Assembly: GCA_017427065.1 (NCBI GenBank)
Contig: JAFRTL010000009.1
Location: forward strand, 184,265 to 239,492
Source of the DNA: Bacteroidaceae bacterium
GTDB taxonomy: Bacteria; Bacteroidota; Bacteroidia; Bacteroidales; Bacteroidaceae
DNA length: 55,228 nucleotides
Direction: 5' to 3'
Shown: positions 26,968 to 36,450 of the stretch, in pieces
How positions within the stretch are numbered: the stretch's first letter is position 1
Layout: the number at the start of each line of letters is the position of its first letter
Position numbers and translations under genes: made by a program
The notes under the pieces: model-generated
What the model saw: only the letters and a program-made list of their open reading frames with translations
Database searches by the model: none
What the model was told of the DNA's origin: nothing

Positions 26968-27014
26968 TACCTATTTTTAGGTATTTCCGTTCCTCCATAC
27001 TCCTACTATCTTTG
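26968..27014 (+). promoter_or_regulatory. Promoter of the haem-redox operon with NarL-like 7-2-7 dyad
   Basis: Perfect dyad TACCTATTTTTAGGTA at 26968-26983, whose halves fit the NarL-type heptamer TACYYMT in 7-2-7 arrangement. 23 bases later comes the -7 box TATCTTTG (27007-27014). The same dyad-to-(-7) distance is found at 36404-36450. Confidence 0.8.
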
Positions 27015-27037
27015 CAACGCAAAAGAAAGTATCGAGT

Positions 27038-28366
27038 ATGAAAAGGAACGTTTTTTTTATATTATTGTGCGGCCTCACGGCGCTTACCACTACAGTCAAA
27101 GCTCAGAATCCAGAAGCATACCAATCTGTCAACAAAGAGCAGATAAATGCTGAGAACGATTGGAAATTCCGTTTCGGAGGCTATGGTGAGATGCTGGCAC
27201 GTCGCATGGATTACGGACTGAACCGTTGGGGCACAGGCACCGCGACAGGCAATAAGAAAATAGACCATAACGACATTTCTCTCCCCCGCTTCGTATTAGC
27301 ACTCGACTATAAGTTCAATAAGAAATGGATGCTTGGAGCCGAGATCGAATTCGAATCTGGAGGCACGGGCGCTGCTTATGAACTGGAAGCTGGTACGGGC
27401 TCTGAGAACGGTGAGTACGAGCAGGAATTTGAGAAAGGCGGCGAAGTGGCCTTGGAGCAGTTCCACATCACTCGTCTGATCATCCCTGAGTTCAACGTAC
27501 GTGTGGGACACATGGTGCTGCCCGTTGGTCTGACCAATACCCACCACGAACCTATCAATTTCTTCGGGACCTCTCGTCCTGAAGGTGAGACGGTCATCAT
27601 CCCTTCCACTTGGCATGAGACAGGTATCGAGTTCTACGGTACCCTTGGCAAGGGCTATGGTACCTTCGACTATGAGGCGATGATCGTTTCTGGTCCTAAT
27701 CCCAATGGTTTCAGCAAGTACGACTGGATTAAGGGTGGCCGTCAAGGTTTCTTCGAGAGCGACAACTTCACCTCTCCTGCTTATATCCTTCGTTTAGATT
27801 ATAAGGGTATCCCTAACTTGCGTGTGGGCGGTTCTTTCTATTTCTCTGCGAATGCCGCCAAGAATGCTGACAAGCTGACCACCTACGATCAGTTGGGTAA
27901 GATTCCTGTAAAGCTGTGGAACTTCGATGCGCAGTATAGCAATAAGTATCTCACGGCACGTGCCAACTATATCCGCGGACATGTGGCGCATGCTGCAGGG
28001 ATCACTTCCGTGAATAATTCCTACTCCAAGTTGTCCCCCTATGGACGTAAGGCTCCCTTTGCTTCAGAGGCGGTCACCTACAGTGCTGAAGTGGGTGTGA
28101 TTTTGAAAGCCTTCATCCCGTTTGTGCACTATGAGTATTACAATCCACAGGAGAAAGGTGATGTGGGACAGACGATGGATGCTCGCTGTCAGGTGAGTAT
28201 GTGGCGTGTAGGTTTCAACTGGAAGCCACTGCCCAACTTGGTGGTGAAAGCCGACTATACCACTCGCCAGATTGGTACACAGAAAGTATTCGGAACGGGT
28301 AGGTACAACAGCGAGAATGAGTTTGCTATCGGCATTGCCTATGCTGGATGGTTTTTTCAGAGATAG
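27038..28366 (+). CDS. Outer-membrane porin (phosphate-selective porin O/P-like)
   Basis: A 442-residue protein with a signal peptide (ending near VKAQ, residue 23) and a repeated amphipathic beta-strand pattern typical of OprO/OprP-like 16-stranded porins: FRFGGYGEMLARRMDYG at the start, then FVLALDYKFNKKWMLGAEIEF and many alternating strands, closing with EFAIGIAYAGWFF. Contains an extra acidic loop (GGTGAAYELEAGTGSENGE). First gene of the haem-redox operon; probably gives the outer-membrane pathway for its substrate. No specificity can be read from sequence. Confidence 0.8.
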   Translation: MKRNVFFILLCGLTALTTTVKAQNPEAYQSVNKEQINAENDWKFRFGGYGEMLARRMDYGLNRWGTGTATGNKKIDHNDISLPRFVLALDYKFNKKWMLGAEIEFESGGTGAAYELEAGTGSENGEYEQEFEKGGEVALEQFHITRLIIPEFNVRVGHMVLPVGLTNTHHEPINFFGTSRPEGETVIIPSTWHETGIEFYGTLGKGYGTFDYEAMIVSGPNPNGFSKYDWIKGGRQGFFESDNFTSPAYILRLDYKGIPNLRVGGSFYFSANAAKNADKLTTYDQLGKIPVKLWNFDAQYSNKYLTARANYIRGHVAHAAGITSVNNSYSKLSPYGRKAPFASEAVTYSAEVGVILKAFIPFVHYEYYNPQEKGDVGQTMDARCQVSMWRVGFNWKPLPNLVVKADYTTRQIGTQKVFGTGRYNSENEFAIGIAYAGWFFQR

Positions 28367-28411
28367 AGTTGAGAGTTGAGAGATTATTTGTACTAACATA
28401 ATTATAAGAAG

Positions 28412-34296: not shown

Positions 34297-34306
34297 GGTT
34301 AATGAT

Positions 34307-36376
34307 ATGAACAAATACAATCTATTGACAAAGTGTTTAACGGTCTTGATGGTAGCGCTGATCCTCCTTTTGGGGACAGCGACTTTCATCGAGCAGGCCA
34401 AGGGCACCTCCTTCGTCAGTCAGCACATCTACCACACCCTCTGGTTTTGTGGGTTTTGGGGCCTCATTGCCCTGTTGGCTACCATCGCCCTCATCCGTCG
34501 CACCCTTTGGCGCAGACTGCCCCTCTTGTTTTTGCATGGCGCTTTCCTAATTATCCTGGGAGGTGCCTTGCTTACGTTTATATGGGGCAAACAAGGCGTG
34601 ATGCACCTGCGTTCAGGCATGCTTGTGGACAACTACCAACTGATGGAGACAGGCGAGATACACCCCTTGCCTTTCACGCTGACGCTGGACACGTTCCTCA
34701 TCGAGCACTATCCCGGCACCGATGCCCCCTCCGACTATATCAGTCGGGTAACCTACCAAACAGGTGAAAGCACCGTCCAAACCACCGTCTCCATGAACCA
34801 TATCCTGAAGCTGCATGGCTACCGACTCTATCAGTCGTCCTTCGATGAAGACCAGCAAGGCAGTTGGCTCATGGTGAACTACGACCCTTGGGGCACGGGT
34901 GTCACCTACTTTGGGTATATCCTGCTGGGCCTCTCCATGATCTGGACCCTGCTTTCCAAGAAAGAAGAGTTCTACAAGTTGCTCCACCATCCGTTGCTGA
35001 AGAAGAGTGGCCTGTTTGTTTGGCTGCTAGCCAGTGTGCTGACAGTCCAAGCACAGACACGTACCCTACCCGTTTTGAACCGTAATCAAGCCGATTCATT
35101 GAGTCGTGTACAGGTGGTCTATCAAGACAGGGTGGTTCCCTTCAATACCTTGGCACGCGATTTCGTTCAGAAAATCTATGGCCGTCCCTCCTACCACGGA
35201 TTCACCGCAGAGCAGGTCGTGGGTGGGTGGCTCCTGAGTCCCGACGTCTGGAAGAAAGAGCCCTTCATCAAGGTGAAGAGCGCGGCGCTGCTCAAAGAAC
35301 TGGGCCTTTCGGACAAGTACATCACCCTGGAACAACTCTATGAGAGCGACACCTACCGCTTGCAAACCCTATGGACCTCCGTGCAGAACGAACCCCAAAA
35401 CCAGTTGGCTAAAGGCATTCTGGAAGTCGATGAAAAAGTGGGACTTATAAAGATGCTCGAAAGTGGTACTTTAATTAAACCCGTGGCAGAGATGCCCCAT
35501 GTGCAACCCATCAGCCACACCCGTTTGCTGGCAGAATTGGGATACAATCGCATCCCCTTCACCAAGATCCTTTTCATGGCCTGCCTCACGCTGGGCTTCC
35601 TGTCCTTCTTCTGGATGCTGTATAAAGGAACCAAGAAATCCCCGTCAGAGATCAGCTCTTCGAACACCATTGAAACCCTCTTCCGCATCGCCCTCTGGAT
35701 CGCCCTCCTCTTCCACTTGGCAGGCTATCTGCTGCGTTGGTACATAGGCGGACGCATCCCCCTCAGCAATGGCTACGAGACCATGCAGTTCATGGCGCTC
35801 ACCACCTTGGTGCTGGCCGTCCTGCTCCAACGCCGCTTCCCGTTCACCATCACCTTCGGATTCCTCCTCACAGGCTTCACCTTGCTGGTATCCTATCTGG
35901 GACAGATGAATCCGCAGATCACACCCCTGATGCCCGTCTTGGCCTCCCCACTGCTGAGCAGTCACGTGTCCGTCATCATGATCGCCTATGCCCTCTTGGC
36001 ATTCACCCTCTTCAATGGCCTGTTGGCCTTGGTGCACATCCGTCTGCATGGAGCGGACGATCCACGCGTGATGCAACTCACCCTCTTCAGTCGCCTGTTG
36101 CTCTATCCCGCCGTCTTTTTCCTAGGCGCAGGTATCTTCCTGGGCGCCGTGTGGGCCAATGTCTCCTGGGGCAGCTACTGGTCGTGGGATCCCAAGGAAG
36201 TATGGGCCCTCATCACCTTCCTTATCTACAGCGCAGCCTTCCACCGTCAAAGTCTGTCCTGGCTTCGCAATCCCAAGTGGTTCCACCTATACATGATCTT
36301 GGGATTCCTGGCCATCCTGATGACCTATTTTGGCGTAAATTATGTACTTGGAGGCATGCACAGCTACGCTGGATAA
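34307..36376 (+). CDS. Fused CcsB/ResB-CcsA cytochrome c biogenesis protein
   Basis: A 689-residue membrane protein of system II haem attachment. The N-terminal part (about 1-230) has membrane segments and a ResB-like extracytoplasmic stretch (VTYQTGESTVQTTVSMNHIL, then GYRLYQSSFDEDQQG). A long soluble loop follows, and the C-terminal CcsA part has several membrane helices and the tryptophan-rich haem motif WGSYWSWDPKEVW near residue 620. It should carry haem across the membrane and ligate it to CxxCH motifs. ATG 34307 is chosen, 10 bases after the previous stop; an in-frame ATG at 34283 would overlap the Rid-like gene. Last gene of the operon, matching its two haem-c substrates. Confidence 0.9.
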   Translation: MNKYNLLTKCLTVLMVALILLLGTATFIEQAKGTSFVSQHIYHTLWFCGFWGLIALLATIALIRRTLWRRLPLLFLHGAFLIILGGALLTFIWGKQGVMHLRSGMLVDNYQLMETGEIHPLPFTLTLDTFLIEHYPGTDAPSDYISRVTYQTGESTVQTTVSMNHILKLHGYRLYQSSFDEDQQGSWLMVNYDPWGTGVTYFGYILLGLSMIWTLLSKKEEFYKLLHHPLLKKSGLFVWLLASVLTVQAQTRTLPVLNRNQADSLSRVQVVYQDRVVPFNTLARDFVQKIYGRPSYHGFTAEQVVGGWLLSPDVWKKEPFIKVKSAALLKELGLSDKYITLEQLYESDTYRLQTLWTSVQNEPQNQLAKGILEVDEKVGLIKMLESGTLIKPVAEMPHVQPISHTRLLAELGYNRIPFTKILFMACLTLGFLSFFWMLYKGTKKSPSEISSSNTIETLFRIALWIALLFHLAGYLLRWYIGGRIPLSNGYETMQFMALTTLVLAVLLQRRFPFTITFGFLLTGFTLLVSYLGQMNPQITPLMPVLASPLLSSHVSVIMIAYALLAFTLFNGLLALVHIRLHGADDPRVMQLTLFSRLLLYPAVFFLGAGIFLGAVWANVSWGSYWSWDPKEVWALITFLIYSAAFHRQSLSWLRNPKWFHLYMILGFLAILMTYFGVNYVLGGMHSYAG

Positions 36377-36403
36377 GGGCGTTTTAACAAAAAAAGCGCA
36401 AAA

Positions 36404-36450
36404 TACCTACTTTTAGGGATTGCACAGGTTCGTGAAACGCCGTACCTTTG
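36404..36450 (+). promoter_or_regulatory. Promoter of the hemerythrin-LuxR gene with NarL-like dyad
   Basis: Dyad-like TACCTACTTTTAGGGA at 36404-36419 (7-2-7 form, right half one base off) and -7 box TACCTTTG at 36443-36450. The 23-base distance equals that at 26968-27014. It is about 390 bases upstream of the regulator ATG, so either a long leader or a separate RNA is made. Confidence 0.72.

Follow-up and report, generated by a model that had tools for sequence, protein, structure and literature searches.

The regulator locus and its two promoters

The window analysed here, a stretch of 55,228 nucleotides from a Bacteroidaceae bacterium (GenBank assembly GCA_017427065.1, contig JAFRTL010000009.1, positions 184,265 to 239,492 of the forward strand), contains an operon promoter followed by seven genes on the same strand and, downstream of these, the gene of a putative DNA-binding regulator with its own promoter (Table 1). 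Each promoter carries a 16-base inverted repeat (dyad) at a fixed distance from its -7 box. Sequence comparison suggests that the regulator, which joins a sensor of the RIC type to a NarL-type helix-turn-helix (HTH) domain, binds both dyads and activates the operon and its own gene under iron shortage, a reading to which a probability of about 0.78 is assigned.

Promoters of the Bacteroidetes type comprise a -33 TTG and a -7 TAnnTTTG element. The dyads TACCTATTTTTAGGTA and TACCTACTTTTAGGGA both end exactly 23 bases before their -7 boxes, TATCTTTG and TACCTTTG respectively, as was claimed in the initial annotation, and this was verified by counting the intervening bases (26984-27006 and 36420-36442). 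The -33 TTG directly follows the dyad in the regulator promoter, while TTTCC occupies this place in the operon promoter. Both dyads have the 7-2-7 inverted geometry, and their half-sites had been ascribed to TACYYMT, the heptamer consensus of NarL sites. The geometry holds for both, with only one of the four heptamers fitting this consensus in full (TACCTAT), two fitting at six of seven positions (TACCTAA and TACCTAC) and one at five of seven (TCCCTAA). The leader of the regulator gene is approximately 400 bases long. In a relative with 95 % identity (L054) the box of the regulator promoter is retained despite a partly different spacer. Approximately 230 bases of the leader (36541-36773) are missing from L054, reflecting an insertion or deletion, and the approximately 90 bases 3' of the regulator promoter are nearly identical in both and are perhaps a conserved leader element.

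Conservation of the dyad and its spacing

Eighty loci, the best 80 of 462 matches to the regulator and by their titles mostly from ruminant-gut metagenomes, were compared. Of these, 55 contain a homologue of the gene that opens the operon, divergent from the regulator in 43 and co-directional in twelve. All 55 loci (45 non-redundant regions) have a dyad scoring 10 bits or more, located 22 to 24 bases before TAnnTTTG in the direction of the operon, with a spacing of 23 bases in 52, 24 in two and 22 in one. The identical procedure found none in 5,500 shuffled regions. The shuffles used for both the operon and the regulator counts preserve base composition only. A TTG is found within four bases 3' of the dyad in 53/55 operon promoters which, together with the box at 23 bases in 52/55, constitutes a class II-type layout. 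Across 1.37 Mb of sequence from the 80 loci, which were chosen by protein rather than by motif, TTWRGGTA is separated from TAnnTTTG by 23 bases in 44 cases, with the other distances between 0 and 90 averaging 0.1. Where operon and regulator diverge, a single dyad can act for both, standing 23 bases from the operon box and 38-39 bases from the regulator box, and some of these loci contain a further dyad 23 bases from the regulator box. The spacing of 38/39 was considered as a second class of site and rejected, as it represents the dyad of the operon viewed from the side of the regulator.

The regulator or its haemerythrin part was found by protein search in 180 of 201 genomes of the family. Motif discovery by expectation maximisation from random seeds in 156 upstream regions recovered AATACCtAAaAATgaTGAtt with a log-likelihood of 1101, against 148 and 141 for two shuffled sets. 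The input to the weight matrix included wrong-side regions of thirteen minus-strand loci (L024-L053), which dilute it, and the 27 order-level regions were kept outside it. Reduction by near-identity brought the family regions from 170 to 154, and in 126 of these the 450 bases upstream of the regulator contain a site scoring 14 bits or more (shuffled rate 0.002). Outside the family but within the order, 29 regions were reduced to 27 by removal of L361 (near-identical) and L376 (too short); eleven of the 27 have a site (shuffled rate 0.006), and five of these eleven, all belonging to distant regulators (L363, L371, L374, L378 and L386), have TAnnTTTG at 23 bases. Relatives in which the haemerythrin and LuxR-type parts are encoded by separate genes have a site upstream in 11/11 kept regions. 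Absence of the motif from orthologous operons was one of the refuting conditions named in the initial annotation, and the motif is present, at 55/55 operon and 126/154 regulator promoters.

In one split form (L324, 3850-5252) a haemerythrin-like protein is followed by an overlapping LuxR-type open reading frame (ORF), the N-terminal half of which has no Pfam receiver match. In the twelve other genomes labelled as the genus of G000 the match covers the haemerythrin part only, with a best identity of 52 %, while fused relatives with 82-87 % identity occur in genomes labelled as other genera than that of G000. The contig may have been acquired, or the genus label may be unsure.

A wider set of sites among relatives

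The pattern TTWRGGTA-N23-TANNTTTG gave 238 matches, compared to 39 for the reversed pattern, and occurs in 120/201 family genomes; the same half-site and box with a gap of 28 instead of 23 occur in 63/201. When TATTG was included and up to one mismatch permitted, 484 matches were obtained, compared to 21 for the reversed control, in 165/201 genomes. Of the 164 genomes whose regulator match is strong (better than 1e-45), 154 have such matches, as do 11 of the 37 with a weak match or none (Fisher p 3e-16, with kinship ignored). The co-occurrence can also be observed within genera, with matches in 2/2 regulator-bearing and 0/10 other genomes of one genus, and in 3/5 and 1/6, respectively, of a second.

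The first genes behind 129 matched loci include the porin of the imelysin operon (20), TonB receptors (18), TetR proteins (9), methyltransferases (9), flavodoxin (5), HmuY (4), calycin-like proteins (4), ZIP transporters (3), FeoAB (3) and the regulator itself (3). The remainder are small clusters or singletons, several of which are plainly not iron genes, and 14 loci had no ORF called. The loci are not a random sample, with 58 taken as listed and 71 fetched mostly because the match continues GGTATTG, and clusters are named by their representatives, the Pfam scan having covered these and some singletons. The HmuY-type cluster was seen in relatives and not in the source genome. The distribution of matches points to a regulon that would be family-wide rather than restricted to this locus. 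Across the order, matches were found in 70/149 genomes, including two from this family, but reversed-control matches are frequent at this wider level, so that the case for genome-wide use extends no further than the family.

The regulator and the operon genes

The regulator matches the haemerythrin (PF01814, 1e-14) and GerE (PF00196, 8.4e-17) families of Pfam, with the GerE domain scoring 61 bits against a gathering score of 23.5, and its HTH also matches NarL/LiaR structures. No receiver domain was found in it. Six putative metal-site residues of the sensor (Table 1) are invariant in 23 aligned sequences, with H131 and E135 alone aligned to YtfE; residue conservation was counted over 98 sequences, after 12 short products of 110 were dropped. 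The sensor domain has the RIC fold, and the fold search gave little information on residues 1-54. As its TIGR03652 score is 55.6 bits, below the equivalog cut-off of 204.7, the sensor is RIC-like rather than an RIC equivalog, and among haemerythrin-like di-iron proteins the RIC/YtfE class comes nearest to it. The description of the protein in the initial annotation, as a hemerythrin-like sensor joined to a NarL-type HTH, was retained for the HTH and amended to the RIC/YtfE-like class for the sensor.

PorA, the first gene product of the operon, is predicted to be porin-like; a relative in its cluster matches Porin_O_P (5.1e-06). Elsewhere in the window, a cytosine DNA methyltransferase-like ORF (44203-45537) is followed by several large ORFs, and the region 44203-53843, read by eye, is possibly a restriction or defence cluster.

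Table 1. Positions of the promoter elements, operon genes and regulator domains in the window.
Feature	Position	Strand	Details
Dyad TACCTATTTTTAGGTA	26968-26983	+	Predicted regulator binding site, operon promoter; counterpart in 55/55 operon promoters of relatives
-7 box TATCTTTG	27007-27014	+	Operon promoter; 23 bases 3' of dyad
PorA (name used here), operon gene 1, predicted porin-like	27038-28366	+	No Pfam match of its own at 0.001
Imelysin / Peptidase_M75 family protein	28412-29614	+	PF09375, 2.7e-59
Di-haem oxidoreductase (DHOR)	29721-31160	+	PF06537, 6.1e-64
Porin_O_P family porin	31183-32391	+	PF07396, 1.1e-58
Protein with weak PSCyt1 (cytochrome c) match	32405-33136	+	Match under curated cut-off
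RidA-like / chorismatase-like protein	33142-34296	+	Start chosen by analyst; ORF list: 33109
CcsBA-type cytochrome c assembly protein	34310-36376	+	ResB + Cytochrom_C_asm
Dyad TACCTACTTTTAGGGA	36404-36419	+	Predicted autoregulatory site; sites in 126/154 family regulator upstream regions
-33 box, TTG	36420-36422	+	Directly 3' of regulator-promoter dyad
-7 box TACCTTTG	36443-36450	+	Regulator promoter; 23 bases 3' of dyad
Regulator, 319 residues	36849-37808	+	N-terminal part, RIC/haemerythrin-like di-iron domain, NarL/LuxR-type HTH
RIC-like helical domain, residues 76-225	37074-37523	+	Invariant H88, H131, E135, H164, H209, E213
NarL/LuxR-type HTH, residues 248-313	37590-37787	+	

Proposed mechanism and signal

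The sites, their phase and conservation, the domain types of the regulator, the co-occurrence and the frequent linkage are directly legible in the sequences compared. We infer binding, activation rather than repression, and iron as the signal. Both dyads would be binding sites of the regulator encoded downstream, with its C-terminal HTH binding the inverted repeat as a dimer immediately upstream of the -33/-7 promoter and at a fixed phase, and as an activator it would recruit RNA polymerase. The N-terminal di-iron domain would report cellular iron, such that an empty or changed metal site during iron shortage would lead to activation of the porin-imelysin-di-haem-oxidoreductase-CcsBA operon as well as the regulator gene. 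In relatives the same site may serve TonB receptor, FeoAB, HmuY, flavodoxin, TetR and methyltransferase genes. Direct control of the operon and autoregulation, as predicted in the initial annotation, are well supported by sequence because the HTH is of the NarL/LuxR type and the spacing is nearly invariant.

Counted in the way customary for Bacteroidetes promoters, the centre of the dyad falls near -42, where LuxR-type activators also have their site. With its last base immediately before the -33 TTG, the dyad leaves the core promoter free. Positive autoregulation and activation of the operon under iron shortage is the simplest reading of this arrangement. The signal is probably iron shortage rather than oxygen (O2), nitric oxide (NO) or peroxide, and the recognised genes behind the matches resemble the iron-starvation stimulon published in PMC10434189. 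There, haemerythrin/LuxR regulators are raised in low iron in both Porphyromonas gingivalis (CdhR, linked to hmuYR) and Bacteroides thetaiotaomicron (BT0519-BT0520), and P. gingivalis PG1236-1238, which include CdhR, are listed at 6.9-7.3-fold. Going by gene names rather than sequence, BT2473-2482 would be the counterpart of the window operon.

It is unlikely, if the most credible of the alternatives, that the regulator controls both promoters while sensing NO, O2 or peroxide through its di-iron centre, with the iron genes being secondary. RIC proteins have been linked to nitrosative and oxidative stress (PMC9268430), and the operon encodes a di-haem oxidoreductase and a cytochrome assembly protein. 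However, iron uptake and iron-sparing genes (FeoAB, HmuY, TonB receptors and flavodoxin) lie behind the conserved sites, the low-iron data of PMC10434189 fit iron, and no NO or peroxide gene family was recognised among the annotated clusters, with many singletons unannotated. Slightly less likely again is a repressor that iron shortage releases from the dyad, which would then be an operator beside the -33 box. CdhR has been reported to repress mfa1 and luxS (PMC4082711). Against repression, the dyad sits ahead of the -33 TTG and clear of the -33 to -7 core, the regulator promoter of divergent loci has the shared dyad 38-39 bases before its box, and the transcripts of cdhR and hmuYR rise together in a trkA mutant (PMC9666725).

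Several observations weigh against control by the regulator as proposed. Linkage to the operon is not universal, as 25/80 loci show no PorA, twelve of them with at least 9 kb of sequence on both sides; the regulator site is still present in 18/24 non-redundant loci without PorA. No site of 14 bits was found for 28/154 family regulators, some of which lie directly behind operon genes (L064, L087, L089, L095 and L105) and might need no site of their own. In the second genus above, 2/5 regulator-bearing genomes have no match, and twelve matches occur in 6/21 genomes recorded without the regulator, one of which was taken to be G200 from the list. Furthermore, the relatives share ancestry and are not independent samples. 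In the source genome (2.5 Mb, 83 % complete), the dyad alone is not enriched, with 27 matches at up to one mismatch compared to 75 for the reversed pattern. Since the reversed control outnumbers the pattern, the dyad by itself is not a sufficient basis for the claim, and over-representation within this single genome was dropped as an argument; phase and conservation, not dyad frequency, carry the weight. The half-site, TATT and box together (TTWRGGNATTK-N20-TANNTTTG, up to one mismatch) gave five matches in the genome and none for the reversed control. Of these five, the two reported sites are the only ones free of mismatches, so that the wider regulon is visible in relatives and not here.

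The matches in genomes without a detected regulator would also fit a different factor, such as a second NarL-family or a Fur-like protein, binding the dyads with the regulator as a mere neighbour, and other NarL-type HTH proteins do exist. This is improbable given the frequent linkage, the sites at the promoter of the regulator itself and the co-occurrence within genera, and ten of the twelve matches concerned fall in four genomes that are only 69-78 % complete. NarL-type HTHs bind TACC-type dyads, and the dyad is of this type rather than a Fur box. Variation in the distal half (TACCTA, TCATYA, CACYYA and others) led to the rejection of a Fur-box interpretation, with the Fur motifs of this group lying outside the comparison.

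Exact matches to TACCTANNNNTAGGNA occur at three places in the source genome, all on the contig of the window, which itself has seven dyad matches (up to one mismatch, both strands counted) where 0.47 are expected from shuffles. The third exact copy, TACCTATACTTAGGGA (54610-54625), has no TAnnTTTG at 23 bases on either strand and was rejected as a promoter element; it is probably a chance occurrence. That both promoter dyads are likewise chance similarities is barely credible for all that the dyad alone is not enriched and has this promoterless copy, as the 55/55 operon promoters, the 23-base phase and the absence of the arrangement from all 5,500 shuffles argue against it.

Comparison with known systems

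It is slightly more likely than not that, in the Bacteroidaceae and neighbouring families, the combination of di-iron RIC-type sensor and NarL-type HTH is the global activator of the iron-starvation response that has long been missing. Regulation of the iron response in the Bacteroidetes has been described as scarcely known (PMC10434189) and the Fur protein of P. gingivalis as non-canonical (PMC6613475). If true, activation from a fixed dyad beside the -33 box would accomplish what Fur does by repression elsewhere, and a protein fold associated with iron repair would have been turned into a gene switch. It might also explain the strong induction of the imelysin/porin/oxidoreductase locus in low iron and colitis, and would allow the regulon to be predicted in many species of the gut and rumen. 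The site, phase, sensor and targets are defined well enough for the question to be put to the test in B. thetaiotaomicron straight away.

Proteins of the CdhR type have been described before, as has the fused form, noted as PIN17_RS10465 in Prevotella intermedia (PMC10434189). No description of the site, its phase, the RIC-type sensor or the regulon was found in the open-access literature searched, which did not extend to the original CdhR papers. The regulator is best read as a relative of CdhR. CdhR and BT0519-BT0520 likewise pair a haemerythrin-domain partner with a LuxR-type DNA-binding regulator, whereas here the two are fused in one protein, often linked to an imelysin/di-haem operon, with a defined dyad, a fixed phase and a putative multi-gene regulon. 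Unlike the RIC proteins, such as YtfE of Escherichia coli and ScdA of Staphylococcus aureus, the regulator falls below the TIGR03652 cut-off, is fused to an HTH and is proposed to be a sensor rather than a repair protein. It shares the GerE-type HTH and the 7-2-7 inverted repeat geometry with the NarL/LuxR (GerE) family, but without a detectable receiver domain, and the consensus TACCTAA-AA-ATRRTGA differs from that of NarL sites in the distal half as well as at position 7. LuxR-type activation proceeds from a lux box abutting the -35 region. The dyad resembles this in standing immediately before the -33 element and in contact with it, with the difference that the promoter here is of the Bacteroidetes type.

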